40,137 bases of DNA, from the NCBI GenBank assembly GCA_903845065.1, contig CAIMWH010000252.1, positions 1 to 40,137 of the forward strand, read 5' to 3'. A program made the position numbers and the translations under genes. Below, piece after piece: positions 1,837 to 37,498 of this stretch; position 1 is the first letter of the stretch; every line of letters begins with the position of its first letter. The DNA is from an uncultured Rhodospirillales bacterium (GTDB lineage: Bacteria > Pseudomonadota > Alphaproteobacteria > Acetobacterales > Acetobacteraceae). The notes beneath the pieces were generated by a model, which saw only the letters and a program-made list of their open reading frames with translations, ran no database searches and was not told the origin of the DNA.

Positions 1837-2088
1837 GTGGGCGTGATGGACCGGCAGGAAATCCTCGACCGCGTGCGCACGGTGGCGGCGGAATGCTTCG
1901 CCTGCCGCCCCGAGCAGATCAACGAGGCCACCGTGGCAGCCGATGTCGAACGCTGGGATTCGCTGCGTCATCTGGTGTTCGTCAGCAGCCTGGAGCAGGA
2001 GTTCAGCGTCGAGTTCGACATGGACGCCATCGCCGGGCTGACCGATATCGGCGAACTGCTCGGCCTCATCGCGGCCCTGTCTGCATGA
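1837..2088 (+). CDS. Acyl carrier protein (accessory, non-FabF-linked)
   Basis: A small acidic carrier protein of about 80 residues with the phosphopantetheine attachment motif W-DSL-RHL. The serine is residue 39 counted from ATG 1846, or 42 from GTG 1837. It is distinct from the housekeeping AcpP at 30761-31000. The tail (FSVEFDMDAIAGLTDIGELLGLI) matches PP-binding proteins of polysaccharide or secondary-metabolite loci. The stop overlaps the next ATG (ATGA at 2085-2088), so it is translationally coupled to the WcbI/GT61 gene. The start is uncertain between 1837 and 1846. Its likely role is to carry an acyl or glyceryl unit for the glycan enzymes downstream. That is inference from the neighbouring FkbH-like gene. 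Confidence 0.85.
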   Translation: MGVMDRQEILDRVRTVAAECFACRPEQINEATVAADVERWDSLRHLVFVSSLEQEFSVEFDMDAIAGLTDIGELLGLIAALSA

Positions 2089-4175
2089 CGCGACCGCTGA
2101 TCGTCGGCGCCGGAACCTGCGTGATGCAGGCGGTGATCGGCCATCTCGGAACCATCCCCGGCCTGAAAGACCGCGTCGACCTGGTGCTCTCCCAGGTCGG
2201 CGCCGGCGGCCGCCCGGCGCTGGATGCCGAACTGCTGGCACGCTGCTCGGTGCTGATCGAGGAATCGACCCCCTGGCGCGGCGCCGGCACCCTGGACGCT
2301 GCCGAGCGGGAGGCGCTGCCCGCCACCTGCGCGATGATCTCCATCCCGTCGCTGCACTTCAACTCGCTGTGGCCGCTGATGGTGGAGGACCCACGCAACC
2401 GGCCCGACCCCGGCGCGCCGTTCGGCCGCCTGCCCTTCGGCATGGGGGATCGCCAGGGGCTGAAGATCGTGCAGACCGTGAGCGATCCGGCTGCCCGCCG
2501 CGTTGCATACGATAGCGCCGATATCACCAAGCTGGTGAACATCGGCCGCTACCATGAGTTGGAGACCCGCAGCTTCTTCGCCCGCGAACAGGGCTGTGAC
2601 GTGCGGGTGGCCGCCTACGTGATGACGGAGTTCCGCCGCCGGCGGCTGTTCTACACCCACGCCCACCCCACCGGGGACCTGCTGGCCTTCATGCTGGCGC
2701 AGCTTTTCGCCATCCCGGCGCTGCGCGACCTCATCAAGCTGCCATACGACCAACTGGTGCGCGGCGCGGCCGAATGGGGCCGGACCAGCGGCGTGTTCGC
2801 CGGCGAGGATGCCCCGATCCACCCTGTCGTGGCCAAGCATTTCGGCCTCGAGTGGTGGCGGGCCGACCTGACCTATCGCTGGCTCGGCAAGACCAAGACC
2901 TTCGACGAGTGGATCAACTTCTACCTGACCTTCGATCCCGACCATCCCGAGGCGCCACCGCCCCCTGCCCTCCCGGCACCAGTCGCCACGCTTGAACCGC
3001 CGCGCGAAATTCTGCCGCGCGATATACCGGTTGGCCCGTTCCTCGGCACCCTGGTGCGGGGCAATGAGAGCGCCAACCCGCTGCTGCTGTCCGGCAGCAC
3101 GCGCGTCACCCGGCCGGTTCCCTTCGCAAGTGGCGCGTTTGACCTCGCGCTGTCCCCGTACGGGCAGTTCTTCTCCAATCCGCAGGAGACCACCTACGAG
3201 CCGGGCGAGACGCTGGTTGCCTGCCTGCGCGATGCCACCGTGATCGGCGATGACGGCCTGGTGGTGCATGACGGGCGCATCGTGGCGGACACGTTCCGCA
3301 ATTTCCGCCACGGCGCCGCCTCGCCGATGGTGGCAACGCCCGGGCCGCGCTCCATCACCCTGCACCCCGGCATGCCGGCCACCACCCGCCGCCTGAGCGG
3401 GCCGCATTTCTGTGGTGTCGCCGGGCTGTGGCATGACTATGGCCACTGGATTTTCGGCATGCTGCCGCGCCTCGCCGCCTACCTGCAGCGCCGCGCGCAG
3501 GTGCCCGGGCTGCGGCTGATCCTGCCGCGCCTGCCCGCCACCGGGTTCCAGGCCGAAACCCTCGACCTGCTCGGCATCACGCCCGATTGCATCGAGATCG
3601 TTGCCCCCACCGAGCGCCTGCTGTGCGACGAACTGCACATGACCACCGCGTTTGACCTGTGGCGCGTCTCGCCGTTCGGCCGCATCGCCGCCGAGCGCCT
3701 GGTGTCCGCCTGGGCGGCCGAGGGGGGTATCGAGGCCGGGCTGCCGCGCCTGCATATCCCGGCCGCCACGCCCGCCGGCCGCCAGCCGCGCCAGGACCCG
3801 CTGTTTTCCGCCGCCCTGGCGATCCGCGGCTTCCGCACCGTCGAACTCGATGGCATTAGCCTGCGCCGGCAGATCGCCCTCATGCGCGGCGCCCGTTTCC
3901 TCGTCGTCGAGGGCGGCCCGACGTCGGCCAGCGTGTTCTTCGCGCCCAGCCACTGCCGGGTGCTGGAGATCTTCGATCCGCGCAATGTGCAGCCCATGGT
4001 GTGGTCGGCCGCGGCGGTCAGCGGCCTGCAATACGGCTATCAGGTTGGTGCGCTCGAGCGGCCCGGCGGCGATAATTTCGTGGTCGGCACCCAGATGGTG
4101 AGCTGGACGCTCGATCGCATGCTGCTCGACATCGCCCCGCCGCAGCCTGCCGCGGCACATGCCTTCCGGGCCTGA
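2085..4175 (+). CDS. WcbI-like domain fused to GT61 (DUF563) glycosyltransferase
   Basis: A 696-residue two-part protein. Residues 1 to about 290 resemble the WcbI capsule-biosynthesis domain: a VGAGTCVMQAVIG start, YHELETRSFFAREQ, and FYTHAHPTGDLL near 190. WcbI of Burkholderia is known to bind CoA and is needed for capsule. After a Pro-rich linker near 290-305, the C-terminal part resembles GT61/DUF563 glycosyltransferases: GLWHDYGHWIFGMLPRL at about 447 and FLVVEGGPTSASVFFAP near 605. The start is ATG 2085, overlapping the ACP stop; the longer frame from 1893 reads through the ACP gene and is not real. The coupling suggests the WcbI part may take its group from the ACP or CoA while the GT61 part adds a sugar. 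The exact reaction is unknown. Confidence 0.8.
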   Translation: MTRPLIVGAGTCVMQAVIGHLGTIPGLKDRVDLVLSQVGAGGRPALDAELLARCSVLIEESTPWRGAGTLDAAEREALPATCAMISIPSLHFNSLWPLMVEDPRNRPDPGAPFGRLPFGMGDRQGLKIVQTVSDPAARRVAYDSADITKLVNIGRYHELETRSFFAREQGCDVRVAAYVMTEFRRRRLFYTHAHPTGDLLAFMLAQLFAIPALRDLIKLPYDQLVRGAAEWGRTSGVFAGEDAPIHPVVAKHFGLEWWRADLTYRWLGKTKTFDEWINFYLTFDPDHPEAPPPPALPAPVATLEPPREILPRDIPVGPFLGTLVRGNESANPLLLSGSTRVTRPVPFASGAFDLALSPYGQFFSNPQETTYEPGETLVACLRDATVIGDDGLVVHDGRIVADTFRNFRHGAASPMVATPGPRSITLHPGMPATTRRLSGPHFCGVAGLWHDYGHWIFGMLPRLAAYLQRRAQVPGLRLILPRLPATGFQAETLDLLGITPDCIEIVAPTERLLCDELHMTTAFDLWRVSPFGRIAAERLVSAWAAEGGIEAGLPRLHIPAATPAGRQPRQDPLFSAALAIRGFRTVELDGISLRRQIALMRGARFLVVEGGPTSASVFFAPSHCRVLEIFDPRNVQPMVWSAAAVSGLQYGYQVGALERPGGDNFVVGTQMVSWTLDRMLLDIAPPQPAAAHAFRA

Positions 4176-5493
4176 GCGCTACGACGCACCGCCGAGCCGA
4201 CTGCGTGACATGCCGCGCATCGCGGTGCGCGGGCGCCTGGTGCGGCCGCGGGCCGGGATCAACCATGTGCTGGCCTATGGGCAGTCGCTGTCGAGCGGTT
4301 GGGATGGCTGGCCGCCGCTGTCGCTGACGCCTGAGCCGGGGCTGCTGATGCTGGGCGGCTCGGTTCGTCCCGGCGCGGAATCCGGCCCCGACTGGCAACC
4401 GGTGGGCGATGCGCGGTTCCAGCCCCTCGCCGCCACCTTGCAGGATCCCGCCTCCGGCCGCCTGCTCGATCCCGCCACGCCGGGGCTACTTGGCCAGATG
4501 ATGGGCGAAACCCCGCTCGAAACCGCCCTCGCCGAATGGCGCCACCGCGCCGCCATGCCGGGGGAGATGCAGTTGCTCGCCAGCAGTTGCGGCGTCGGCG
4601 CCCGCACCATCGAGGCTTTGGCGGAGGGCGCGACACCGCCGCTGTTCAACCGCCTTGCCACCTGCACCAGCCTTGCGCGGGGCATCGCCACGGCGCGGGG
4701 CCTGGCCTACCAGCCTTGCGCGCTGCTCTTCCTCCAGGGCGAACACAACAGCCTCGGCCTCGCCGGCGGCACCGCCGATCGCGCCACCTACCTCGCCCAC
4801 CTGCTGCGCCTGCACGATACGGTGCAGGCGCGCTTCGGCGGGCGGGACGGACCGATCGCGCTGTTCCTGCACCAGTCCGGCGGGGACTATGCTTCGGACA
4901 GCCAGGCCATCGCGCAGGCGCAACTCGATGCAGCACTGCTGGTGCCGAGCATCTACCTCGCCGCCCCGGTGTATCCGCTGCCGGCGCGCGGCGGACATCT
5001 CGATCCCAACGGATACCGCTGGCTGGGCGCCCAGTTCGCCAAGGTGATGCACCGCGTGCTGACGCTGGGGGCTGATTTCAAGCCGCTCCACCCGGTTCGC
5101 AGCTTCGTCTGCGGCACGCAGGTGAACGTCGATTTCCATGTGCCGCAGCCGCCGCTGGTGTTCGGCCGGCCGTTCGGCGGGCGCGAACGCATCGCGGTGC
5201 CGGATCGCGGTTTCGCGGTGCGGGACGTCGACGGCGCGGTGCCGTTGCGCGGGGTGGAGATCAATGGGCCGAGCAGCCTACGAATCACCCTCGCCCGCCC
5301 CCCGCGTGGCGCCGCCACGCTGCACTACGCCGGGCAGTCCCATCACGGCGGGCGCGGCGCGCTGCATGACAGCGACCCTGCCCGCGCCCGCGCCCGCTTC
5401 GCCGCCCTGCCCGACTGCCCCGCCGATGACCTTGCGGGCCGGCCATATCCGCTGGCGAACTGGTGCGTCGCCTTCAATCGGCCGCTGGACTGA
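4159..5493 (+). CDS. SGNH/GDSL-type esterase (sialate O-acetylesterase-like)
   Basis: A 444-residue protein. It has an N-terminal AYGQSLSSGW block (nucleophile Ser region), a central FLQGEHNS block, and GGHLDPNGYRWLGAQF, which looks like the His-containing block V of SGNH hydrolases. The overall layout resembles carbohydrate O-acetylesterases of the SASA/DUF303 type, followed by a beta-rich C-terminal region. No signal peptide is visible, so it is probably cytoplasmic. The start at 4159 overlaps the previous gene by 17 nt; ATG 4210 (MPRIAVRG) is an equally good start and fits the family better. Its likely role is removal or transfer of an O-acyl group on the glycan made by this locus. That is inference. 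Confidence 0.7.
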   Translation: MPSGPERYDAPPSRLRDMPRIAVRGRLVRPRAGINHVLAYGQSLSSGWDGWPPLSLTPEPGLLMLGGSVRPGAESGPDWQPVGDARFQPLAATLQDPASGRLLDPATPGLLGQMMGETPLETALAEWRHRAAMPGEMQLLASSCGVGARTIEALAEGATPPLFNRLATCTSLARGIATARGLAYQPCALLFLQGEHNSLGLAGGTADRATYLAHLLRLHDTVQARFGGRDGPIALFLHQSGGDYASDSQAIAQAQLDAALLVPSIYLAAPVYPLPARGGHLDPNGYRWLGAQFAKVMHRVLTLGADFKPLHPVRSFVCGTQVNVDFHVPQPPLVFGRPFGGRERIAVPDRGFAVRDVDGAVPLRGVEINGPSSLRITLARPPRGAATLHYAGQSHHGGRGALHDSDPARARARFAALPDCPADDLAGRPYPLANWCVAFNRPLD

Positions 5494-5523
5494 TTGCCCG
5501 AGCCGGCTGCGCTGGGGTAGTCT
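5494..5523 (+). promoter_or_regulatory. Possible promoter upstream of the FkbH-like gene
   Basis: TTGCCC (5494-5499) and TAGTCT (5518-5523) are 18 bp apart in the 88-bp gap before the FkbH-like gene. Both boxes are weak matches. The gap otherwise shows only a good ribosome binding site (AGGAG at about 5570) ahead of ATG 5582. Confidence 0.25.
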
Positions 5524-5581
5524 GCGGCGGTGACATCGACGGGACGGGCAACACGGCCTGTCGCTGGCAGGAGCTCCCAAA

Positions 5582-7387
5582 ATGCCTGATCGCCCGGCTG
5601 CGCCGCTTGCCAACCTCGACGAGCTGCGCGCCGCGCTGAGCGCCAAGCCCCCGTCCCTCGCGGCCCTGTTCGATACCGGCGAGCGCATCATCGCCAGCCC
5701 GCCCGGAATGTGGCCAACCCAGCGGGTGGCGGTGCTGGGCACCCTCACCACCGATTTCATCGCCCGTACCCTGGCCTGCGGCATGGTGCTGGAAGGGGTG
5801 CAGCCGCTGGTCTACCAGGGCCCGTTCGGCACCTATGTGCAGGAAATCCTCGACCCCTCCTCCCCCCTGCACCGCTTCGCGCCCGACCTGGTGCTGCTGG
5901 CGCCGGATTGGCGGGACGTGGTGGAGACCCTGCCGCCCACCGCCAACGAGGCCGAGATGGAAGCCGCGATCGGCCAGAAGGTCGATCTGTTCCGCCATTT
6001 GTGGTCCCTGCTGAGCCGTGGCGGCGCCTGCCGCATCATCCAGCACAGCATCGCCGTGCCGGCCCGGCGCTACTGCGGCCTCGCCGAACGCCTGCTACCG
6101 GGCTCCATCGAGCGCCAGGCGCGCCGCTTCAACGAGCGGCTGTTCGCCGCCGGGCACAACCGCGTCACCTGGGTGGATATCGAGGCGCTGGCGGCCGAGA
6201 TCGGCACCTTGCGGTTCGCGCCATCGAAGTTCTACCACAACGCCCGCCTCGGCTTCGACAACCGCTACCTCCCCAACTATCTCCCGCTGTTCCGCGGCGC
6301 CTGGCGCAGCGCCTTCGGCCGCACCCGCAAGGTGCTGGCGCTCGACCTCGACAACACGCTGTGGGGCGGGGTGATCGGCGATGACGGGGTGGAGGGCATC
6401 GTGCTCGGCCCGGCCACGCCCGCCGGCGAGGCGTTCCAGGACTGGCAGCACTACATCGCTGCCCTGCGCGCCCGCGGCGTGGTGCTGGCCGCCTGCTCCA
6501 AGAATGATCCCGCCATCGCCGAAACCGCCTTCCTCCATCCGCAGACCGTGTTGAAACGCGCCGATTTCTCCGGTTTTGCCTGCTCGTGGGACAACAAGGT
6601 GCAGGGCCTGCGGCTGCTCGCCCGCGCCCTCAATCTCGGCCTGGACAGCTTCGTGTTTTGCGACGACAACCCCGCCGAGTGTGACCTGGTGCGCCGCGAA
6701 TTGCCCGAAGTCGCGGTGATCCACCTCGGCACCGACCCCACCCAGTTCATTGACTTGCTCGATGCCGGCCACTGGTTCGACCAGCAGCACCATACCGGCG
6801 AGGATCTCGGCCGCTCCGACATGTACGCCGCCCGGGCCCAGGCCCTGGAAGCGCAGGAGGCGGCGCCCGATGTGAATGCCTATTTGCGCGGCCTGCGCAT
6901 GGTGGGCCGCGCCTACCGGCCGGAGGACGCCGACATGGAGCGGGTGGCGCAGCTTGAACTCAAGACCAACCAGTTCAACCTCACCACCCGCCGCTACAGC
7001 GCCGAGGCGCTGGCCGGCTTCATGGCCCGCCCGGACGCCGAGGTGCTGGCCTTCCGTCTCGCCGACCGCTTCGGGGACCATGGGCTCACCTCCACCCTCG
7101 TCGCCTTCCACGAGGGCGACGCGTTGCGCATCGACAGTTGGTTGATGAGCTGCCGGATTTTCTCCCGCACCGCCGAACACTTCATCCTGCGCCATTTACT
7201 GGGCCTCGCCGCCGCCCGCGGCGCGCGGCGCATCGTGGGCGAATACCGCCCGACGGCGAAAAACGGCGTGGTGGCGGACCTGTTCCCCCGCCTCGGTTTC
7301 ACCGCCAGCGCCGATGCCGCGTTCTTCGAACTGGCGGTGGACGCACCTGACACCGGCACGCTCGACACCACCATCGCCGCCGCATGA
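5582..7387 (+). CDS. FkbH-like HAD-superfamily protein (HAD-IIIC, GNAT-like C-terminus)
   Basis: A 601-residue protein in the FkbH family. The N-terminal part (about 40-240) is SGNH-like. The HAD catalytic motif ALDLDNTLWGGVIGDDG has Asp255 and Asp257. The conserved CSKND motif has Cys305, and FVFCDDNPAECDLVRR supplies the later HAD acidic motif. The C-terminus from about 440 (LKTNQFNLTTRRY ... FGDHGLTSTLV) is acetyltransferase-like. Characterised FkbH proteins convert 1,3-bisphosphoglycerate to glyceryl-S-ACP; all motifs for that are present here. The start has AGGAG ten bases upstream. The stop overlaps the next ATG (ATGA, 7384-7387). With the ACP at 1837 it could form a glyceryl-ACP donor. 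The substrate is inferred, not shown. Confidence 0.88.
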   Translation: MPDRPAAPLANLDELRAALSAKPPSLAALFDTGERIIASPPGMWPTQRVAVLGTLTTDFIARTLACGMVLEGVQPLVYQGPFGTYVQEILDPSSPLHRFAPDLVLLAPDWRDVVETLPPTANEAEMEAAIGQKVDLFRHLWSLLSRGGACRIIQHSIAVPARRYCGLAERLLPGSIERQARRFNERLFAAGHNRVTWVDIEALAAEIGTLRFAPSKFYHNARLGFDNRYLPNYLPLFRGAWRSAFGRTRKVLALDLDNTLWGGVIGDDGVEGIVLGPATPAGEAFQDWQHYIAALRARGVVLAACSKNDPAIAETAFLHPQTVLKRADFSGFACSWDNKVQGLRLLARALNLGLDSFVFCDDNPAECDLVRRELPEVAVIHLGTDPTQFIDLLDAGHWFDQQHHTGEDLGRSDMYAARAQALEAQEAAPDVNAYLRGLRMVGRAYRPEDADMERVAQLELKTNQFNLTTRRYSAEALAGFMARPDAEVLAFRLADRFGDHGLTSTLVAFHEGDALRIDSWLMSCRIFSRTAEHFILRHLLGLAAARGARRIVGEYRPTAKNGVVADLFPRLGFTASADAAFFELAVDAPDTGTLDTTIAAA

Positions 7388-9216
7388 ACCCGGCCGGGCC
7401 CGATACCATCATGGAGGCCATCATCCCCTACCGTGGATTTCTCGAATCGTTCATCGCGCTCAATCGTATCGCCAGCATCGTGGAAATCGACTGCGGGGAC
7501 TGGCAGCACACCCGGTTCACCCTGCCCGATGCGGTGACGTATCTCGGCCTGGACCGGTCGGCCGCCGTGGTGGAGCGCAACAATGCGCGGTTCGCCAGCG
7601 CCACCCATCGCTTCGCCGTGATGCCCGCCGATGCCGATGACATTCCGGTGGCCCAGTTGCTGTTGATGAAGGACGCGTTGCAGCATCTCGGCAACGACAG
7701 TATCCGTGCCCTGTGCGACACCCTGTTTCCCCGTTTTGCGCACTGCCTGCTCACCGATTCCTACCGCAAGCTGGACACGCCGCAGAACACCGATATCCCG
7801 GACGGCGGTTTCCGTTGCCTGGACCTGTCGGCCGCCCCCTTCCACCTCGATGGCGCCTTCGTGCTGGAGTTTCCCGGCGAGAACTGGGAGCTCAAGCGCG
7901 CCTTCCTGCATCGCCCCGCGGCGGCGCACCATGCGGTGATCGAGGCGGATATCGTCATGCTGCAAACCGCCGATCCGGTGGTCTACCGCGACATGCTGGA
8001 CCTGACGGGCGCGGTGAACATCGAATACTGCCAGCGCAACGCCATCGCCTATGAGAGCGTGCTCGGGGTGAAATCCGGCGTGTCGCCCTGGATGTCCACC
8101 TACAACCGCATCTTCATGCTGGATGACCTGGTGCGCCGCGGCTTCCGCGGCTGGGTGATCTATGCCGACGCCGATGCCTATGTCGGCAATTTCACCTTCG
8201 ATATCAGGGCGTACCTCGCTGCCAACCGCCGGTTCTGCCTGATCGGCGCCACCGGCGGCACCGATGAGCCGTGGAACCTCAACGCCGGCATCCTGTTCAT
8301 CAACCTTGGAGACCCGGTGGGCCGCGCCTTCGCCGCCGATTGGCTGAAGCGATTCTGCGCCACCATCCCGGCCACCACCCTCGCCTCGCCCGACACCCGA
8401 TGGGGCAGCGTGCCGAGTGACCAGGACCTGATGTACGAGTGCATCCGCGAAGTGCCCGGCCTGGTGGCGAAAACCAAGCGGGAGGAGGGCCGCGTCTTCA
8501 ACTACGATGACGGCGCATTCATGAAGCAGGCCATCCGCGCCGGCTATGTGGACCTCGCCAGACGGATCGAGGCCATCCGCCTCGCCACCACCGCCGTGCT
8601 TGCCGCCAACCCGCGGCCAGTGCCGCCGCCCGCGCCGGCGCCGCTGTCGGCCGCTGAACTCGCCGCGCTGGCGCTGCTAGGCCAGAGCCAGCGCCTGCTG
8701 GCCGAGGGGCAGGTCGAACCCGCCATCCTCGCCGCCGAGCAGGCCGTGGTGGCGGCGCCCGAGCATGCCACCTGCGCCGTGCATCTCGCCTATCTCATGG
8801 TGGCGCACCGCCCGCTGCCCGAGGCCGAGGCCGCCTGCCAGCGCGCCCTGGCAATCGCGCCCGAGGATGCCGGCGCGCTGAACGCCTTCAGCATGTGCTG
8901 CGCCCGCGCCAACCGCCTGCAGGAGGCGGTGGCCGCCGCCCGCCAATCGGTGCAGTTGCGCCCTGGCAACCCGCATTTCCATGGCAACCTCGGCAACCTG
9001 CTGCGCCGCATCGGGGACATGCACGGCGCCGAGGAAGCCTATCGCGGCGCCATCGCCTGCGCCCCGGGCGTGGCAACCCCGTATCGGGATTTGAGCCTGC
9101 TCTACGCCGAATACGGGCTCTGGCACGATGCCCTGGTAACGGCGCGGCAGGCCGCCGAGCTTGCCCCGCACGACCAGGCGATTGCCAGCCACCTTGCCAG
9201 TTTGCTCGCGAGGTGA
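7384..9216 (+). CDS. Methyltransferase - glycosyltransferase - TPR fusion protein
   Basis: A 610-residue three-part protein. Residues 1 to about 180 resemble a class I SAM methyltransferase (SIVEIDCGDWQ, YLGLDRS, LLLMKDALQHLGN). Residues of about 185-400 resemble a GT-A glycosyltransferase: a DXD-like GWVIYADADAYVGNF, then LNAGILFINLGDP and PSDQDLMYECI, reminiscent of GT34/GT8-type enzymes. After a Pro/Ala linker (about 405-420) come four or so TPR units, including CAVHLAYLMVA, ALNAFSMCCARANR and HGNLGNLLRRIGD. No signal or membrane segment is visible. Its start overlaps the FkbH-like stop by 4 nt. TPR-bearing glycosyltransferases often act on proteins, for example flagellin or S-layer, so a protein acceptor is possible. 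Domain assignment is firmer than the substrate. Confidence 0.75.
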   Translation: MNPAGPDTIMEAIIPYRGFLESFIALNRIASIVEIDCGDWQHTRFTLPDAVTYLGLDRSAAVVERNNARFASATHRFAVMPADADDIPVAQLLLMKDALQHLGNDSIRALCDTLFPRFAHCLLTDSYRKLDTPQNTDIPDGGFRCLDLSAAPFHLDGAFVLEFPGENWELKRAFLHRPAAAHHAVIEADIVMLQTADPVVYRDMLDLTGAVNIEYCQRNAIAYESVLGVKSGVSPWMSTYNRIFMLDDLVRRGFRGWVIYADADAYVGNFTFDIRAYLAANRRFCLIGATGGTDEPWNLNAGILFINLGDPVGRAFAADWLKRFCATIPATTLASPDTRWGSVPSDQDLMYECIREVPGLVAKTKREEGRVFNYDDGAFMKQAIRAGYVDLARRIEAIRLATTAVLAANPRPVPPPAPAPLSAAELAALALLGQSQRLLAEGQVEPAILAAEQAVVAAPEHATCAVHLAYLMVAHRPLPEAEAACQRALAIAPEDAGALNAFSMCCARANRLQEAVAAARQSVQLRPGNPHFHGNLGNLLRRIGDMHGAEEAYRGAIACAPGVATPYRDLSLLYAEYGLWHDALVTARQAAELAPHDQAIASHLASLLAR

Positions 9217-9267
9217 TCTGTTGTTGTTTTATTCCAATATTCGATAAATATATGGACCTAAAACAAC
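9217..9267 (+). promoter_or_regulatory. AT-rich leader with candidate promoter
   Basis: These 51 bp are strikingly AT-rich in a GC-rich region. TTGTTG (9221-9226) and GATAAA (9243-9248) are 16 bp apart and could be -35/-10 boxes for the methyltransferase gene. ATATT-N5-AATAT (near 9237-9251) can pair. No ribosome binding site precedes ATG 9268, so translation may start within the ATGATGAAGGA region, or the message may be nearly leaderless. Confidence 0.35.
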
Positions 9268-10128
9268 ATGATGAAGGATTATCTACCGATCATTCTCCAG
9301 GCCGAACGTGATGCGGCGGCCGGAGATGTCGTGGTGGCATTGCGCAAGTTGCGCAAGCTGTCGCTGATGGATTTCTCCGGCCTGATGTGGGAACTGCCGC
9401 ATCCCGACCTGCCGCACCTCAACGCCCTGCTGCCACGCATGGCGAGCGAGGATGTGCAGCGCGCCTGGACCGGCGCCGCCGGGCCGCAGATGATGCAGGG
9501 CACCGTCGATTTCGTCCGCATCATGCAAACCCAGTTCGAGCGCATCTGCCGCCGCCCGCTGCAACAGGCCCGCATCCTGGATTACGGCTGCGGCTATGGC
9601 CGGCTGGCGCGCCCGATGTACTGGTTCACCGATCCGCACGACTACTACGGCGTCGATCCCTGGAATCGCTCGATCGAGCTTTGCACCGAGGACGGCATCC
9701 TCGGCAATATCGCGCAATCGGAATATTTCCCTGCCACTCTGCCGGTCGGTGAGGCGCGCTTCGATCTCATTTATGCCTACTCGATATTCACCCACACCTC
9801 GCTGAAGGCCACCAACGCGGCGCTGCGGGTGCTGCGTGACTATATCCACAGCACCGGCCTGCTCGTCATCACCGTCCGCCCGATCGATTTCTGGCAGATC
9901 GTCGGCCGCATCCCTGAGGCGGACCGCCAGGCCCAGGTTGCGATCCACCAGCGCGACGGCTTCGCCTACGTGCCCGACAGCTTCCCCGTCATCAACGGCG
10001 AGGTGATCTTCGGCGACACCACGCTGACTCCGGAATGGCTGGAGCGCAGCCACCCGTACTGGCGGGTGGAAGCCTATGATCGCGGGATCGACCCGTGGCA
10101 GACCGTCCTGATGCTGACGCCGCGCTGA
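9268..10128 (+). CDS. Class I SAM-dependent methyltransferase
   Basis: A 286-residue protein with a helical N-terminal stretch followed by the SAM-binding motif I ARILDYGCGYGRLARP at about 98-112. YGVDPWNRSIELC (motif II) and FDLIYAYSIFTHTS (motif IV/V) follow. This arrangement matches Methyltransf_25/11-type enzymes that act on small molecules or sugars. The two in-frame ATG codons at 9268 and 9271 are both possible starts. It lies in the same direction as the FkbH-like and fusion genes but behind its own AT-rich leader, so it may be transcribed separately. It ends 4 bp from the stop of the convergent gene at 10133. Its substrate is unknown; a sugar hydroxyl of the local glycan is a reasonable guess. 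Confidence 0.85.
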   Translation: MMKDYLPIILQAERDAAAGDVVVALRKLRKLSLMDFSGLMWELPHPDLPHLNALLPRMASEDVQRAWTGAAGPQMMQGTVDFVRIMQTQFERICRRPLQQARILDYGCGYGRLARPMYWFTDPHDYYGVDPWNRSIELCTEDGILGNIAQSEYFPATLPVGEARFDLIYAYSIFTHTSLKATNAALRVLRDYIHSTGLLVITVRPIDFWQIVGRIPEADRQAQVAIHQRDGFAYVPDSFPVINGEVIFGDTTLTPEWLERSHPYWRVEAYDRGIDPWQTVLMLTPR

Positions 10129-10132
10129 TCGC

Positions 10133-11779
10133 CTAGCGGATACGCGGTGCCGGCGCGTCCGGGTCCGCCGCGTAGTTCGACAGCCGGAACGCCGCGTGCA
10201 CCGTGCCCGCCGCGTCTGGCACCAGCGCGGGCGCGCCCGCCTGTCCGCCGGCCAGGCCGAAGCGGCGGCGCAGCACCGCGGGGCTGGCGAGCAGGCGCGC
10301 GGTGTCGTGCAGCGGCAGCAGCCGCCACAGATTTTCCAGCCCCACCGTCGCGAGATCGAACTCCGCGCAGGCGGACAGGATTTCCGCCCGCCGATCGGCC
10401 AGCACGGTGGAATGGCGATCGAGCCCGGAACAGACAATCATGCCGGTCGGCCCGCAGTCGAGCGCAGTAAGCACGATATCGGGCCGGTACTGCCGCAGCA
10501 CCAGCAGCATCTTCCACACATCCCCGGTCCAGAAATACCGCGTCGCGGTGTCCTCCTCGGGATCGGTGCGATGCGCCCGCTCCGCCATCCGGGTGTTCAG
10601 CGGCAGGCAGTCGTGCAGCAGGATCAGCGAGCGGTCATGGCAATGGCGCTCGATGTTGATGAAATCATTAAGCAGGCTCTCGATCAGATGCTCGCCGTCG
10701 AGAAAGGCGATATCCACCGCGCCGCCGAGCAGCGCCGCCACGTTGTTTTCGGCGAAGAACGTCTCCGGCCGGGTGCGGAAGAACAGCGTCCGCCCGGCCA
10801 TCCGCACCTCGGAGACGGTCTTCAGGCGGGGATCGACGCAGACCGTGTCGCAGGAAAACGCCCGCGTCGCGAATTCGCCGGATGAGCCGCTTTCGAACAC
10901 CAGGCGCGGTTGCAGCACGCGATCGAACGCGGCCAGTAGTTGCACGAAATACGGCCCGGGATGGACGAAGGCCGTCACCGGCGGCCGCGCGCAGGCCTCC
11001 AGCGTCTCCGCCCGTCCGCCATGGCCGGGCACCCACCAGTAGTGCGGGTGCGCCACCAGGGGCGCGCCGTCCGGCAGGGCGGGGTCGGCCGGCGGTTGCG
11101 GGGTCTGCATGGCATAGTCGGCGTCATACGGAACGTGCTTGAGGTATTCGCCGTAGCGGTCCCCATACAGGGTCCGGTCGATGTGGGTGAACGGCAGGTC
11201 GTCCTCCACCACCACGCCCGCGTAGTCCTCCACATCGCGTTGCGACAGGGCGAAATAGGCCTCCAGCGCCGCCCCGGCGATAATCTGCAGGCCGGATTCC
11301 GCCCGCTTCCAGCGCGGGCACCACAGCGCCGTCCAGCCCTCGCGCGCGGCGTTGAAATAATCCACCGCCCGGTCGGACACTAGGAAGGCGTCAGACTCGA
11401 CATGCACCACCTTCTCGAACCCGTGCGCCCGGGCGAATTTCGCGGCGAAGAAGAACGAGCGCACCCAGCCCGGAAAATCCGACACCGAGCGGCGGCCGAG
11501 GTTCCGGGTGAAATGATAGAGCAGCACCGGCGCGTCAGGCATCACCGTGTCGGTGTCGCGCACGATGGTCACATCGGGCCAGTCGGGCAGATGGTCCGAG
11601 CCGTCATCGACGATGAGGATCTGGTCGTAGTGCAGCCGCGAGGCGAGCATGGCGTCCAGCCAGGGACGAAAACGCCGATCCCAGGACTGCCACCCCCCGC
11701 CGCCACGGCGCGCGAACGCAGTGCAGAACAGCAGGGTCTTGGGGGCAGGTTGCGGCATCACAAGGTTCCGGGACTTCAC
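10133..11779 (-). CDS. Glycosyltransferase-like / class I methyltransferase fusion
   Basis: A 548-residue protein with two halves. The N-terminal half (about 13-250) looks GT-A-like: KTLLFCTAFARR, QILIVDDGSD, and KVVHVESDAFLVSD with an acidic ESD in place of DXD. The C-terminal half (about 285-450) looks like a class I methyltransferase of the Methyltransf_24 type: RLVFESGSSGEFATRAF, TVCVDPRLK, VDIAFLDGEHLIESLLND and SLILLHDCLP. An alternative start is ATG 11758 (MPQPAPKTLL). Convergent to the previous methyltransferase with a 4-bp gap, it may be the last gene of a minus-strand pair with the beta-helix gene (58-bp gap). A second glycosyltransferase-methyltransferase fusion in the same locus is unusual. 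Function beyond domain type is not visible. Confidence 0.7.
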   Translation of the reverse strand: MKSRNLVMPQPAPKTLLFCTAFARRGGGGWQSWDRRFRPWLDAMLASRLHYDQILIVDDGSDHLPDWPDVTIVRDTDTVMPDAPVLLYHFTRNLGRRSVSDFPGWVRSFFFAAKFARAHGFEKVVHVESDAFLVSDRAVDYFNAAREGWTALWCPRWKRAESGLQIIAGAALEAYFALSQRDVEDYAGVVVEDDLPFTHIDRTLYGDRYGEYLKHVPYDADYAMQTPQPPADPALPDGAPLVAHPHYWWVPGHGGRAETLEACARPPVTAFVHPGPYFVQLLAAFDRVLQPRLVFESGSSGEFATRAFSCDTVCVDPRLKTVSEVRMAGRTLFFRTRPETFFAENNVAALLGGAVDIAFLDGEHLIESLLNDFINIERHCHDRSLILLHDCLPLNTRMAERAHRTDPEEDTATRYFWTGDVWKMLLVLRQYRPDIVLTALDCGPTGMIVCSGLDRHSTVLADRRAEILSACAEFDLATVGLENLWRLLPLHDTARLLASPAVLRRRFGLAGGQAGAPALVPDAAGTVHAAFRLSNYAADPDAPAPRIR

Positions 11780-11837: not shown

Positions 11838-13718
11838 TCAGCCGTGCGCCGCCAGGCTCCATTTTCCGTTCAGTTCCACCAGTTCCACCACCCCGCCGGC
11901 ATTCACCGCCACCGCCGGCAGCAGGCCGGCGAGCCGACCGCCATCGGGGAAGAACAGTGTCAGCCGCCGCTCGGAGGGCAGCGGGATGCCGAGTTGCACC
12001 CGCACCTTCGCCCCCGTACCCGGCCCGCCCAGGCGCACCGCCGCGCGGGTGAAATTCTTGCCCGGCGCCGACAGGCGGAACCCGATAAGCCGCCCGCCGC
12101 CCCCGGTCCAGACATTGGGCACCAGCTTGCCCACCCCGGCCACATCGCCATCCCCCTCCAGCACCGCGGTGCTGGCAGTCGGATCGTAGCCGGTGCCTGG
12201 TTCGTCCACCGCGATCCAGCCGATGCCGGTGCCGACGCTTGCCATGCTCGCGGTCCGCACCTGGGTCAGCGTCTGCAATCCGGGCGGCAGCACCACCGCA
12301 TCGGCGATATCGGGCACCGTCAGCACCCCGCCCTGCGGCGCCACCGTGATGCGGCCGGCGCCGTTGAAGCGGGCGTGGCGCACGGTGATGGTGGCGGTGG
12401 CGGCATACAGCACCCGCTCAGGACCTGGCGCGCCGGGACCGGACGAGATGATGTCCAACCCGTCGAACACGATATCCCGCGCGCCGTCCCGCACCTCGAT
12501 GGCGTGGCCGGCTTTCAGGCGGGAGATATCCAGGGTGGTGTTGGTGAAACGCAGGTGGTTCATCTGGTACTGGAACCAGCCGCCGCCGTATTCGGTATTC
12601 CAGATCGCCACCGCCGGCCCGGTGCAGCCCAGCACGATGTTGTCGCTGCCGGTGATGAGGTAGGAGCCGCCGGGATTGATCCCGGCGCCCTCGATATCCG
12701 TCACCCGGCAGCGCGAAATCCGCACCTCGTAGGCGCCCCCGGTATCGATGCCGAAGCCGCGCTCGTTGGAGACCTCGCAATCCTCGATGGTGCAGTGCCG
12801 CGCATTGGCATCGATGCCACCGTTCTCCCAGTTGGCGCGGGTGCGGCAGCCGGTGAGGCGCAGGTTCTCGGCGTCGGCATAGATGCCGTAGCCGCCGTTG
12901 CCCCACGAATACAGGTTCACCAGCGTCGCCTCCACCACATCGGGCAGGTTGGGGCCGAGCACCATCTTCTGCCCGCCCGGCGCCTCGTTGTAGTTGCCGA
13001 TGGCGAAGCCTGACTGGCCGTTCTTCCAGGCGAAGCTGTCCGCGATGGTCAGGCGCTTCAGCGGCGCGCCGGTGCGGGTGCCGAAGCGGTGGCACTGGAT
13101 GCCGGCGCCCTTGTTGTCATGCAGCCGCAGCCCGCTAAGCCGCCAGTTGGCGCCATGCTCGATCCATATCCCGCTGCCGCCGTTGCGCGCCGCCTCGATC
13201 TGGTCGAGGACCATCAGCGCCTCCTCCCCGCCATCGGCGGCCACCGCGATCAGCAGCCCGGTGGGGCCGCTGCCGCGCAGCACTCCGCACTGCCGCAGCG
13301 TGCAGGCCGCCGGCGCGCCGACGATGGAGACCATGCCGGCATCGGCCCCGGTATGCGCGCCGCCGCCATCCCAGATCACGCCGCTGATATCGATCACTTC
13401 CTTGGTATCGATGCGAAACCATGACCCGGCCTGGAGCCCGGTGCCGACGATGCGGCTGGCGCCCGGCACCCCGTGCATATGCACCGCCACATTCTGCGCC
13501 AACACCGGCCCGGCGACCTTGTAGCTGGTGGCCCGCAGCCGGAATCCCTTGCCCGAGCGCAGCGCGGCGTTGAAGGTGGCGGTATCGTCCGCCCCGCCGA
13601 CCGGGCCGAAACTGTCAATATAAGGCGCGTCGTCACCCGTGCCCTGCGCCATCGCGGGCAGCGGCAGCAGGGCGGCGGTGGCCATCAGCAGGGTGGCGCG
13701 GCGGGCAATGGGGTGCAT
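11838..13718 (-). CDS. Secreted right-handed beta-helix (pectate-lyase-like) protein
   Basis: A 626-residue protein with a clear N-terminal signal peptide (RRATLLMATAALLPLPAMAQG; likely cleavage after AMA at about residue 24). It starts with DTATFNAALRSGKGFRLRATSYKV, a layout typical of Pectate_lyase_3 proteins. The middle (about 120-430) is rich in short repeated beta strands with Asn ladders and turns (SGIWIEHGANWRLSGLRLHDN, YGIYADAENLRLTGCRT, GFGIDTGGAYEVRISRCRV), the hallmark of a parallel beta-helix. A Gly-rich C-terminal domain (about 490-626) resembles virion or host-binding tails. It is probably a periplasmic or extracellular polysaccharide lyase or epimerase, or a glycan-binding protein. 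No catalytic residues can be assigned by eye. Confidence 0.8.
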   Translation of the reverse strand: MHPIARRATLLMATAALLPLPAMAQGTGDDAPYIDSFGPVGGADDTATFNAALRSGKGFRLRATSYKVAGPVLAQNVAVHMHGVPGASRIVGTGLQAGSWFRIDTKEVIDISGVIWDGGGAHTGADAGMVSIVGAPAACTLRQCGVLRGSGPTGLLIAVAADGGEEALMVLDQIEAARNGGSGIWIEHGANWRLSGLRLHDNKGAGIQCHRFGTRTGAPLKRLTIADSFAWKNGQSGFAIGNYNEAPGGQKMVLGPNLPDVVEATLVNLYSWGNGGYGIYADAENLRLTGCRTRANWENGGIDANARHCTIEDCEVSNERGFGIDTGGAYEVRISRCRVTDIEGAGINPGGSYLITGSDNIVLGCTGPAVAIWNTEYGGGWFQYQMNHLRFTNTTLDISRLKAGHAIEVRDGARDIVFDGLDIISSGPGAPGPERVLYAATATITVRHARFNGAGRITVAPQGGVLTVPDIADAVVLPPGLQTLTQVRTASMASVGTGIGWIAVDEPGTGYDPTASTAVLEGDGDVAGVGKLVPNVWTGGGGRLIGFRLSAPGKNFTRAAVRLGGPGTGAKVRVQLGIPLPSERRLTLFFPDGGRLAGLLPAVAVNAGGVVELVELNGKWSLAAHG

Positions 13719-21265: not shown

Positions 21266-22084
21266 TTACCGCAGCAGCGCCGACATCGCGCCCACCGCGC
21301 CGATCCAGCCCACCACGCCCGCCATGTCGTTGGCCGCGAACGCTACCGTGCGCGGCGCCACGCGTTCGGACACCGGAATGCCGCTCACCAGGTCCGCCAG
21401 CGTCACCGAGGACAGATCGAGTTCCAGACGGTGCGGCCCCGGGATCACATAGGGCCGGCATCCGCCCGCATTGCGCACCGCCCGTGCCGCCGCCGCCTGG
21501 ATGGCGGCGCGCGCATTGGCCGGCGACAGCGCCCGCGCCGCCCGCTGCGACAGCGCCGTCTTGACCACCGCCATCTCGGCGCCGGGAAACAGCGGGGCAC
21601 ACTGCGCCTTCAACTGGTCATCCCCGGTCAACAGCAGCACCGGCACCCCGAGGCTGCCCGAATAGGCGCCATACAAGGTCGCCTCGGCGCAATCGATCCC
21701 GTTCACCCGGATCGCCGAAAACGCGAACCCGTTGACCGTGTGGGACAAAATCCCGTTGCGCCCGGCACCCGCATGATAGCCGGTAAAGAACACCCCGGCG
21801 TAGCTGGCATCGAGCCCGGCGCACATATAGGTGGGCTTCGGCCGCCCGAGGATCACCTCGGCGCGTGGGTCGAGCAGTTCCGGCAGCAGGTTGGTCATCG
21901 GCCCGTGGCTGTCATTCACCAGCACCTCGGTGGCGCCGCCCTCGAACGCGCCGACGATCGCGGCGTTGACCTCCTCGGTCATCAACCGCCGCGCCCGCTC
22001 GTATTCGGTGTTGCCCGGCGTGCCCTGCTGCGGCGTCACCACGCCGGCGACGCCCTCGATATCGGCGGAAATGAAGATCTTCAT
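21266..22084 (-). CDS. dppA: DppA-type D-aminopeptidase (peptidase family M55)
   Basis: A 272-residue zinc aminopeptidase. The metal ligands of Bacillus DppA are at matching places: Asp8 and Glu10 (FISADIEGVAG), His60 (NDSHGPM), His104 (TGYHAGAG) and Glu134 (GIDCAEATLYGAYSG). His115 of the active site is also kept (ILSHTVNG). Family members release N-terminal D-amino acids such as D-Ala from short peptides, which ties to peptidoglycan peptide recycling. Its start overlaps the acyltransferase stop (ATGA, 22081-22084). It is the last gene of a four-gene minus-strand group. No signal peptide is visible, so it is cytoplasmic. Confidence 0.94.
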   Translation of the reverse strand: MKIFISADIEGVAGVVTPQQGTPGNTEYERARRLMTEEVNAAIVGAFEGGATEVLVNDSHGPMTNLLPELLDPRAEVILGRPKPTYMCAGLDASYAGVFFTGYHAGAGRNGILSHTVNGFAFSAIRVNGIDCAEATLYGAYSGSLGVPVLLLTGDDQLKAQCAPLFPGAEMAVVKTALSQRAARALSPANARAAIQAAAARAVRNAGGCRPYVIPGPHRLELDLSSVTLADLVSGIPVSERVAPRTVAFAANDMAGVVGWIGAVGAMSALLR

Positions 22085-23205
22085 GGGTGCTTCCTGATGA
22101 ACGGAGTTTGTGCCGAGGCGAACATCTGCCGGACCACGCGCCGCCCGGGCTGCTCGACCAGAACATACGCCACCCAGGCGAACGGGATGACGACGAGGGT
22201 GCCGAGGGCGGCAAAGCCGAGCGCGACGGCGGGATGCACATCGGTGCCCAGCATCGCGGTTGCGAGCCCGAGCTCCAGGGGCCGGATCGGGTTGTGGATC
22301 AGATAGATCGAGTAGGAGACCACGCCGAGGAAATACGGCACCCGCGTCGACAGCAGCGCCGCAGCCCGCCCCTGATTGGCGGCAAACGCTACCACGAGAA
22401 AGGGGAACATCAGCGCCGCCGGCAGGTCCACCCGCAGCACCAGGCTCAGCCCACACGCCGCCGCCAGACCGAATGCCACGATATCCGCCGCGAAAATCGC
22501 CCGCAGCCGCGGCGCGTCATAGGCCCGGAACGCCAGCATGCCGAGCGAGAACTCCGCCAGGCAGCGCACCAGGTTCAGCGGCATCGCCTCATAGGTGAGC
22601 CCCAGGCGGGGCAGCCGCGTCGCCAGCAGCACCAGCAACCCCACCGCGACTATGCCGCCCAGCGCGGACACCGCGCGCCCGGCGAAAAATATCGCCACCA
22701 ACAGCGGAAACGCCAGATAGGCCACGATCTCGGTACTGATGGACCACGCCGGCCCGTTGAACGTGGCGCCGATACCCAATCCGGGCAGCAGCAGCAGGTT
22801 CGCCGCCAGGTCGGCCGCGAAACTGCCGCTCACGAAAAACCGGTTCGCCCCAGTTAGAGCGATATCCACCGCCCCCAGCACCGCCACGATCAGCACCACC
22901 GAGACATGCAGCGGCATCACCCGCGCCACCCGGCGGGCGAGGAAATCGGTATAGGCCCCCGGCCGCCGCGCCTGGAACGAGGCGAGGTAGGTGTAGGACA
23001 TGATGAAGCCGCTGAGCACAAAGAAGAAATCCACTGCCATGTAGCCATGCGGCACCAGCGAGGGGATGGTCTGCGCGGTGAGGTTCTGCCCGGTCGCCGA
23101 GAAATGGGTGGCCACCACCGCCAGCGCCGCAACGCCGCGCATCGCCGTCAGCGCCCGCAGTTCGCCACGCTCGGCCGTCTTGGGTTCGACAGGTGCGGCG
23201 CTCAT
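22081..23205 (-). CDS. Acyltransferase 3 family membrane protein
   Basis: A 374-residue multi-pass inner-membrane protein of the acyltransferase_3 family. Members move acyl groups (often acetyl or succinyl) onto lipopolysaccharide, exopolysaccharide or peptidoglycan. It opens with LRALTAMRGVAALAVVATHF, containing the conserved Arg of the first helix and the active-site His of the HF motif. VDFFFVLSGFIMSYTY, RRVARVMPLH and about ten hydrophobic segments follow. The C-terminus ends in YVLVEQPGRRVVR, as in the family. It overlaps by 4 nt with both neighbours (ATGA at 23202-23205 and 22081-22084), so all three are translationally coupled. Coupling to D-aminopeptidase and DmpA-type genes suggests a cell-wall or D-amino-acid role. 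The substrate is unknown. Confidence 0.92.
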   Translation of the reverse strand: MSAAPVEPKTAERGELRALTAMRGVAALAVVATHFSATGQNLTAQTIPSLVPHGYMAVDFFFVLSGFIMSYTYLASFQARRPGAYTDFLARRVARVMPLHVSVVLIVAVLGAVDIALTGANRFFVSGSFAADLAANLLLLPGLGIGATFNGPAWSISTEIVAYLAFPLLVAIFFAGRAVSALGGIVAVGLLVLLATRLPRLGLTYEAMPLNLVRCLAEFSLGMLAFRAYDAPRLRAIFAADIVAFGLAAACGLSLVLRVDLPAALMFPFLVVAFAANQGRAAALLSTRVPYFLGVVSYSIYLIHNPIRPLELGLATAMLGTDVHPAVALGFAALGTLVVIPFAWVAYVLVEQPGRRVVRQMFASAQTPFIRKHP

Positions 23206-30760: not shown

Positions 30761-31000
30761 TCAGGCGGCGCGCTTCTTCTCGATGTATTCCACCGCGTCC
30801 TTCACGGTGCTGATCTTCTCGGCGGCGTCTTCGGGGATTTCAACGCTGAAAGCTTCCTCGAAGGCCATCACCAGCTCGACCGTGTCGAGGCTGTCGGCAC
30901 CGAGATCGTCGATGAACGACGCATCCGCGGTCACCTTGCTTTCCTCGACGCCGAGATGCTCGACCACGATCTGCTTCACCCGATCGGCGATATCACTCAT
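30761..31000 (-). CDS. acpP: Acyl carrier protein (fatty acid synthesis)
   Basis: The 79-residue housekeeping ACP. It carries growing acyl chains on phosphopantetheine at Ser37 in [15 protein letters not shown]. The sequence [20 protein letters not shown] and the acidic helix II match AcpP of Alphaproteobacteria. The start is ATG 31000 with AAAAAGGAAC upstream; the frame open to 31771 is a fabG shadow. It sits between fabG (200-bp gap, own candidate promoter) and fabF. It differs clearly from the accessory ACP at 1837. Confidence 0.99.
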
Positions 31001-35399: not shown

Positions 35400-36323
35400 T
35401 CAGGCCCAGGTAGGCCGCATCACCGCTTGTGCGCGCGCGAACACCTCGTCCACCCCCAGGGCCTTCAGGTCCTCCGCCCGCAGCACCACCAGCCACTCCC
35501 CCTTCGGCCCACGCGGCGCGGTAATCGCGGGATCGCTGTCCGGCCCGAACAGCACCACGCACGGCGTGCCCGACAGCGCCGCCAGATGCATCGGCCCGGT
35601 GTCGTTGCCCACCACCACCGCCGCCCGCCGCGCGATATCGTAGAGTTCGCCAAGCGAGGTCTGCCCGGTGAGATCCACCGCCTGCGGACATATCAGCTTG
35701 ATGAACGCCCCCAGATCGGCCTCGTTGGGCGCCCCGATCACCACCGGCGTCACACCCTTGTCCCACAGCATGCGCGCCAGTACGCCATAGTTCTCCGCCG
35801 GCCACCGCTTGGCCGGCCGATGCGCCGCCGCCCCCGGCGCGAACAGCGCGAACCGGCGCGGCAGGTCGGCCTGGCTCTTCGGCAGCCATGACATATCGGG
35901 CAGCGGAAAATCGCAGATCCCCGCCATCTCCAACTGCTCCTGCTGCCGCTCCCGCGTGTGCATATCGTCGCGTCCCGGATTGGCATGCGGCAACGCACAC
36001 CCCGCCGCGATGCCCGACCAGCACGGCCGCCCGGCCAGCCGGAAATAGCGCGACGACCGCCCGGAGGTCTGCAAATCGTACACCATGTCATACCCCCGCA
36101 ACTGCCGCCGCAACCGCAGCAGCCCCGGCAGGTTCCACCACCCCGGCCGCGCATCCACCTCCACCCGGTCAAACCACGGGGACGCGGCCCCGAGTTTCGC
36201 GAACGGCGCCGTGGTCAGCAGGGTGATCTCATCGCCGGCATGCGCCGCCCGGATCGCCGCGAACGGCGCGAAGGACTGCACGAAATCCCCGAACGCCCCC
36301 AGCCGGATCACCAGCACCCGCAC
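35400..36323 (-). CDS. Glycosyltransferase family 9 (heptosyltransferase-like)
   Basis: A 307-residue GT-B enzyme. MRVLVIRLGAFGDFVQSFAPFAAIR is the family's N-terminal signature. FALFAPGAAAHRPAKRWPAENY and VVVGNDTGPMHLAALSGTPCVVLFGP form the ADP-heptose-binding part. Members add heptose or related sugars to the lipopolysaccharide core at the inner face of the inner membrane. The start is GTG 36323, sharing one base with the GT4 stop (TAGTG), so translation is coupled to the GT4 gene. Confidence 0.93.
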   Translation of the reverse strand: MRVLVIRLGAFGDFVQSFAPFAAIRAAHAGDEITLLTTAPFAKLGAASPWFDRVEVDARPGWWNLPGLLRLRRQLRGYDMVYDLQTSGRSSRYFRLAGRPCWSGIAAGCALPHANPGRDDMHTRERQQEQLEMAGICDFPLPDMSWLPKSQADLPRRFALFAPGAAAHRPAKRWPAENYGVLARMLWDKGVTPVVIGAPNEADLGAFIKLICPQAVDLTGQTSLGELYDIARRAAVVVGNDTGPMHLAALSGTPCVVLFGPDSDPAITAPRGPKGEWLVVLRAEDLKALGVDEVFARAQAVMRPTWA

Positions 36324-37471: not shown

Positions 37472-37498
37472 GCTGGCGCTATAAAGCAGGAGTCGACC

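Follow-up and report, generated by a model that had tools for sequence, protein, structure and literature searches.

Dlt-type D-alanylation relies on a loader (DltA), a carrier (DltC), an MBOAT protein (DltB) and an SGNH protein (DltD), and the methoxymalonyl-acyl carrier protein (ACP) sub-cluster consists of FkbG-K. Here we describe a run of six genes (1837-10128, + strand), among them genes for an ACP, a WcbI-domain protein and an FkbH protein, in contig CAIMWH010000252.1 of an uncultured Rhodospirillales bacterium (assembly GCA_903845065.1). The window referred to below is the entire contig of 40,137 bases, part of a 5.9 Mb draft genome. Judging from sequence, we put at about 0.53 the probability that this locus serves to acylate a surface glycan by way of a carrier protein, with FkbH loading a glyceryl group and WcbI transferring it. 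As in the Dlt system, a loader, a carrier and a transferase would then act on a cell-surface polymer, but FkbH would take the place of DltA, the window has no MBOAT, and WcbI is the likely transferase. If this proposal is correct, a carrier protein would connect glycolysis with the decoration of the cell surface, a parallel to the D-alanylation of teichoic acids.

ACP genes are also present in the flagellin glycosylation locus of Campylobacter jejuni. Flagellin of this bacterium carries di-O-methylglyceryl pseudaminic acid (PMC3068675; also PMC13317227), and the fkbH-domain gene cj1302 is part of the same glycosylation locus (PMC7099621); we infer that cj1302 is linked to the glyceryl group of the flagellin sugar. 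The two systems would share an fkbH-domain gene and, speculatively in the case of the window, a surface sugar that bears methylated glyceryl, but unlike in our proposal, the addition in C. jejuni depends on Cj1295. ACPs are mentioned in flagellin islands in two other papers (PMC4875605, PMC7874193), and the word FkbH is absent from the former. In the open PubMed Central literature we found no role of FkbH-ACP on glycans in O-antigen, polysaccharide or flagellin contexts, and FkbH appears together with MBOAT in the work on aeruginosin and suomilide.

In polyketide pathways, 1,3-bisphosphoglycerate is the source from which FkbH charges an ACP with glyceryl, this ACP being a stand-alone protein in tetronate systems, and Mad homologues of the methoxymalonyl-ACP sub-cluster have been described (all in PMC7489565). 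For suomilide, O-methylation of the FkbH-loaded glycerate has been proposed (PMC13122637, PMC10143770). The window FkbH shares its motifs with these polyketide and nonribosomal peptide synthetase (NRPS) systems, but the locus contains no synthetase and instead has WcbI and a GT61-like domain. In contrast to the methoxymalonyl-ACP sub-cluster, the window has no dedicated dehydrogenases beside FkbH and the ACP.

For WcbI, the open PubMed Central literature offers a 2013 structure without a demonstrated reaction. In the crystal of this Burkholderia capsule protein CoA is bound, with Cys14 and His201 near its thiol; three assays gave no acetyltransferase activity on the substrates tried, and the authors proposed a missing partner (PMC4104973). 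The window domain resembles the solved protein (4bqn) in its predicted fold and in the positions of Cys14 and His201 but differs from it in being fused to a GT61-like domain, in lying beside an ACP and FkbH, and in lacking the ADP-contact loop.

The ACP, FkbH and WcbI proteins of the window

The first gene of the run (1837-2088, +) encodes an ACP of 83 amino acids that matches PF00550 with 22.3 bits (cut-off 20.8) and has its serine in a WDSL motif. A first-pass annotation of the window had called this ACP dedicated, in agreement with the finding that the fatty-acid ACP is encoded by a separate gene (30761-31000) among the genes of fatty-acid synthesis. Two matches to the phosphopantetheinyl-transferase family PF01648 in the same genome could prime the ACP. 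The genome also contains, on contig C235 (259-2080, L208), a second ACP with a good score against the profile of FkbH-linked ACPs, which adjoins an AMP-binding ligase at the contig edge and possibly represents another carrier-dependent acylation set.

The FkbH protein (601 amino acids; 5582-7387, +) consists of an FkbH_N domain, a HAD-IIIC domain and a C-terminal FkbH region. It matches TIGR01686 with 260 bits (cut-off 146.65, E 2e-77) and PF21211 with an E value of 4.5e-6, and the DLDNT and CSKND motifs, which had been reported as intact, are indeed so; among 84 compared FkbH rows, DLDNT is found in 80 and C[ST]KN in 63. Encoded by a single copy in its genome, it is predicted to be the glyceryl-ACP loader.

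The WcbI domain (2085-2954, +), the candidate glyceryl transferase, belongs to a fusion protein of 696 amino acids (gene 2085-4175). The entire protein scores 56.6 bits against PF18588 and the isolated domain 58.9 bits (E 7e-16), at a cut-off of 29.2, and in an alignment with 4bqn the cysteine of GAGTCVMQ and the histidine of THAHPTG match Cys14 and His201. The AF2 model of the domain (pLDDT 86.7) predicts a WcbI fold, matching 4bqo with a Z score of 21.0 and an rmsd of 4.2 over 261 residues; VIA-align and Foldseek matches beyond WcbI score much lower, the next at Z 8.6, and were not taken as kin. The initial description of this protein as a WcbI/GT61 fusion is borne out for WcbI by both family match and predicted fold. 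The GT61-like glycosyltransferase domain (3438-3965, +) scores 23.7 to 25.9 bits against PF04577, under the cut-off of 27, but is about 42% identical to a free-standing protein of locus L031 that passes it.

In the proposed scheme, FkbH would transfer glyceryl from 1,3-bisphosphoglycerate to the phosphopantetheine of the dedicated ACP, as its family membership suggests. The WcbI domain would hold this phosphopantetheine in the pocket that takes CoA in the solved WcbI, and its Cys/His site, as the recurrent neighbourhood and the conserved residues suggest, would move the glyceryl group to a sugar. An acyl-ACP donor could explain the inactivity of the solved protein. More speculatively, one or both methyltransferases of the run might O-methylate either the sugar or the glyceryl group. 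Equally speculative is a role in removing or editing acyl groups for the SGNH esterase, with its predicted fold like that of carbohydrate acetylesterases. The loader (FkbH or an AMP-ligase) and the transferase (WcbI or MBOAT) would be exchangeable around a constant ACP. We infer the acyl group, its acceptor and the use of the ACP by WcbI from sequence. Such a link between FkbH-ACP and WcbI predicts glycan groups of +88 Da (glyceryl) and +116 Da (di-O-methyl) and provides a concrete way to probe the function of WcbI and of glycan-linked FkbH-ACP.

In all nine tandem WcbI pairs compared, one copy bears the cysteine and the other, possibly a helper subunit, lacks both Cys and His (for example L034:4768-6932, L141:10407-12130 and L142:6997-8848); in four of the nine, the Cys-bearing copy has Arg instead of His. 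The loop 167-172 of 4bqn, which contacts ADP, was considered as a mark of ACP users and rejected, as it is short in linked and unlinked rows alike: 12-14 residues occupy this position in all 44 WcbI rows including the window (duplicates from L005, two of them, L119 and L128 left out), as opposed to 19 in 4bqn. The idea that WcbI proteins are ACP users in general was given up as well: an ACP is encoded within about 1.5 kb at 4 of 35 WcbI loci (30 of 67 places in the family plus five from the class), as opposed to none of the 30 loci with GT61, and the difference is not significant (Fisher p 0.12).

A recurring and partly mobile module

The module is real, recurring and partly mobile. Its core, ACP, WcbI and FkbH, recurs in Acetobacteraceae, a Caulobacter, a Ramlibacter and a Niveispirillum plasmid, and the six genes are not one travelling set. 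They had at first been treated as one unit with WcbI as a side part, a view that gave way on comparison with relatives: none of the fetched relatives was found to carry all six genes side by side, the SGNH gene has relatives in 12 other genomes without FkbH within about 1.5 kb, the methyltransferase-TPR protein is matched only in its TPR part, and WcbI is the recurring partner and likely transferase. Gene order is nevertheless kept in the locus with the nearest layout, L032, where etfA, hbd, ACP and a WcbI-GT61 fusion (49% identical) are followed by a relative of the second methyltransferase (45%, opposite strand) just before FkbH (66%), and a hexapeptide-repeat protein occupies the position of the esterase.

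Other loci vary this arrangement. GT61 and WcbI, fused in the window, are separate genes in L031, where the ACP is fused to an AMP-binding enzyme beside WcbI. The Niveispirillum plasmid (L211:7812-12292) encodes FkbH, ACP, WcbI and SDR in tandem; this operon is flanked at either end by transposases and preceded by a sulfotransferase gene. Genome G001 has the tandem order FkbH-ACP-WcbI-WcbI, and in G064 a WcbI pair lies upstream of FkbH. In G059, an AMP-binding ligase, an ACP and WcbI follow each other beside a long open frame that encodes multiple GT4 and TPR domains, and a search at 1e-20 gave no FkbH match in this genome. With an AMP-ligase or FkbH as loader and WcbI or MBOAT as transferase across these loci, the carrier is constant while the loader and the transferase change.

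The closest named kin of the window FkbH are mostly from Acetobacteraceae, as seen when genomes were scanned, one for each species, which yielded 80 named loci (the best 80 of 90 relatives). In 74 of these an ACP gene lies on the same strand within 5 kb of FkbH. Within the same distance, 49 have MBOAT, nine have WcbI and none has both, as detected with WcbI and MBOAT profiles that we built from few sequences; in 19 of the 80 loci, the sequence to one side of FkbH is shorter than 5 kb. These neighbours support the earlier suggestion that FkbH and the ACP serve a surface glycan, which is sharpened here rather than confirmed; the chemistry is proposed. The MBOAT cases are not independent, because 29 of the 49 come from Pseudomonas/Stutzerimonas kin; among the remaining 20 are Bradyrhizobium, Bacteroidota, Clostridiales, Leptospiraceae, Myxococcota and Acidobacteriota. 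As in the window, FkbH and ACP are close together in the FkbH-ACP-MBOAT loci of Stutzerimonas, Bradyrhizobium and Sinorhizobium meliloti pSymB, but WcbI stands in the window where MBOAT stands there; a profile built from three sequences detected no MBOAT in the six frames of the whole window.

Several phyla have such FkbH-ACP-MBOAT loci (L088, L052, L097, L106 and others) with a Dlt-like layout. On S. meliloti pSymB (L214), MBOAT, ACP and HAD (FkbH) genes form a group, with a recombinase gene and an IS element close by. In Stutzerimonas (L052:13101-14069), the gene two past the ACP encodes an LpxR-family outer-membrane protein, hinting at lipid A or lipopolysaccharide as the target in that organism. 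An alpha/beta hydrolase gene and a 3-hydroxyisobutyrate-dehydrogenase-like gene, as in L066 (1051-3167) with counterparts in L034-L038 and L042, are found no more than about 7 kb away from FkbH at 7 of 14 close annotated loci, including loci without WcbI (L038, L042).

In the 150 genomes of the family, FkbH is present in 47 and WcbI in 41. WcbI lies within 10 kb of FkbH at 7 of the 59 collapsed WcbI sites, the window included (the two FkbH frames of G078, the genome of L039, were merged to one site), whereas random placement in 4.5 Mb would give 0.2 such pairs, an excess of about 35 times. Part of this excess is expected without a shared pathway, because both families favour glycan loci.

In the FkbH tree, the window falls in a branch of 15 rows (SH-aLRT 95), of which 11 are linked to WcbI, four to neither transferase and none to MBOAT. 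The tree left out 22 of the 29 rows from Pseudomonas/Stutzerimonas, further copies from a genome already represented (L001-L005, L020, L023, L148), short contigs (L072, L087, L093) and rows of at most 350 residues; L039 is among those missing. The FkbH proteins of G064 and the Niveispirillum plasmid fall in another part of the tree than that of the window. A single clade for all 13 WcbI-linked FkbH proteins, a group partly chosen after the first tree, was rejected with a p-AU of 2e-7, counting L144 and L145, whose WcbI is 8-10 kb away, as other. The WcbI-FkbH link has therefore been made more than once.

A tentative extension of the proposal, possible but short of probable, is that the WcbI domain of this module is a carrier-dependent O-acyltransferase whose missing partner is acyl-ACP. 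The module would then exemplify a modular, mobile class of glycan-acylation systems that, with one ACP at the centre, FkbH or an AMP-ligase as interchangeable loaders and WcbI or MBOAT as interchangeable transferases, place glyceryl, perhaps O-methylglyceryl, on surface sugars, and tandem WcbI pairs would consist of a catalytic and a helper subunit.

Alternative explanations

The glyceryl-ACP might be destined for a small molecule of the methoxymalonyl-ACP or tetronate type, with the synthetase elsewhere in the genome and the glycan genes as mere neighbours. FkbH-ACP pairs are established in natural-product pathways (PMC7489565), contig C241 of the same genome encodes an NRPS-like protein with condensation, AMP-binding and PP-binding domains, and a 3-hydroxybutyryl-CoA dehydrogenase is encoded directly upstream. 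However, the latter is the single-copy housekeeping hbd, found in the same place in a genus mate without FkbH (G020). A polyketide synthase had been stated to be missing, and no ketosynthase (KS), condensation or acyl-CoA dehydrogenase match was found among the locus proteins. With WcbI or MBOAT as the recurrent FkbH neighbours, and with synthetase-sized open frames (>1100 amino acids) in 12 of the 80 FkbH loci, many of which are short, we regard this explanation as improbable. That the surface-glycan genes came together by chance in a variable island, without a common pathway, would fit the lack of conservation of the six-gene set, the presence of other DNA between the same flanks in G020 and the frequency of FkbH and WcbI in the family; it is made very improbable by the ACP that accompanies FkbH in nearly all loci surveyed and by the excess of WcbI-FkbH linkage, even though that null model ignores clustering in glycan loci.

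Also unlikely, in our view, though to be taken seriously, is that WcbI is an ordinary CoA-dependent O-acetyltransferase and that FkbH-ACP decorates the same glycan independently, another protein transferring the glyceryl group. The NCBI name of WcbI is putative acetyltransferase, CoA was bound in the crystal (PMC4104973), most WcbI loci examined have no ACP neighbour, and two relatives encode hexapeptide-repeat proteins. Against such a division of labour are the repeated origin of the WcbI-FkbH linkage, tandem orders in which WcbI directly follows the ACP, also with a different loader, and the complete separation of WcbI and MBOAT among the 80 FkbH loci, as expected if the two share one slot.

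Several observations weigh against glyceryl transfer from the ACP to a surface glycan by WcbI. The FkbH locus lies outside any polysaccharide cluster, with GT9/GT4 glycosyltransferases only at 35400-38194, and an Acyl_transf_3 protein encoded 12 kb away (22081-23205) is another acyltransferase candidate, as are the hexapeptide-repeat proteins of L032 and L040 for the transferase role. The ADP-contact loop is absent from every WcbI row compared, so these sequences cannot separate users of ACP from users of CoA. An ACP is encoded within about 1.5 kb in only 4 of the 35 WcbI loci, the window being one of them, which limits the claim to this module rather than to all WcbI. Of the close FkbH loci without WcbI within 5 kb, L033 ends at a contig edge, and L038, L039, L042 and L147 are real exceptions, L039 being outside the tree.

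Putative accessory genes and surroundings of the locus

The six reading frames of the run are all on the + strand, as first annotated, and lie downstream of the housekeeping etfA-hbd pair. To say that most of them overlap was too strong: two of the five junctions have overlaps of 4 bases (at 2085 and 7384), a third overlaps if the SGNH gene starts at 4159 but is a gap with the alternative start at 4210, and at the remaining two the genes are separated by 88 and 51 bases.

Two of the proteins, the esterase and the methyltransferase-TPR protein, seem to be accessory. The SGNH-type carbohydrate-esterase-like protein (4210-5493, +, or from 4159) has no Pfam match, and its initial assignment is upheld by the predicted fold: the AF2 model (pLDDT 81.2) matches the acetylesterase XAC1771 (7kmm, E 1e-10) and a phage tailspike (E 2e-17) in Foldseek. 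GQS and His 263 of HLDPNG, which may provide the catalytic Ser and His, are invariant in 13 aligned rows. The next protein but one (610 amino acids; 7384-9216, +) had been described as a methyltransferase-glycosyltransferase-TPR fusion. Its C-terminal TPR families are clear; its methyltransferase-like N-terminus is below the cut-off for Methyltransf_25 (E 0.004-0.016), and the middle part, possibly GT-A, matched no glycosyltransferase family and has only a DxD-like stretch, read by eye. Among fetched relatives, those in L077 and L079 match the TPR part. The lone methyltransferase of the earlier description is a class I enzyme (286 amino acids; 9268-10128, +) with 33.9 bits against PF13489 (cut-off 27).

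The hbd gene (894-1823, +) matches the PRK07530 equivalog with 526 bits (cut-off 420) and flanks the module from outside. It was judged to be housekeeping because it is single-copy in its genome (at E 1e-60) and has the same position in G020, and a methoxymalonyl route through this enzyme was rejected on that ground and for the lack of an acyl-CoA dehydrogenase match in the locus. In G020, etfA, hbd and an MsrQ-like gene are on one contig in the same order as in the window; the interval from hbd to the MsrQ-like gene is about 5.7 kb, versus about 12 kb in the window, and contains no match to the six locus genes. FkbH was not found at 1e-20 in either genus mate searched (G020, G111), and the six-gene locus is accessory relative to these genomes.

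Downstream of the run, on the opposite strand, are genes for a protein with a Methyltransf_24 domain (10133-11779; PF13578, 35 bits) and a right-handed beta-helix protein (11838-13718; PF13229), neighbours whose membership in the locus is uncertain. Past 13.8 kb, housekeeping genes make up most of the window, among them those for GlnE, fatty-acid synthesis and ribosomal proteins. The Acyl_transf_3 gene is of the OafA type and, on the opposite strand, is flanked by two peptidase genes, and the glycosyltransferase region at 35400-38194 encodes a heptosyltransferase-like GT9 protein and a GT4 protein.

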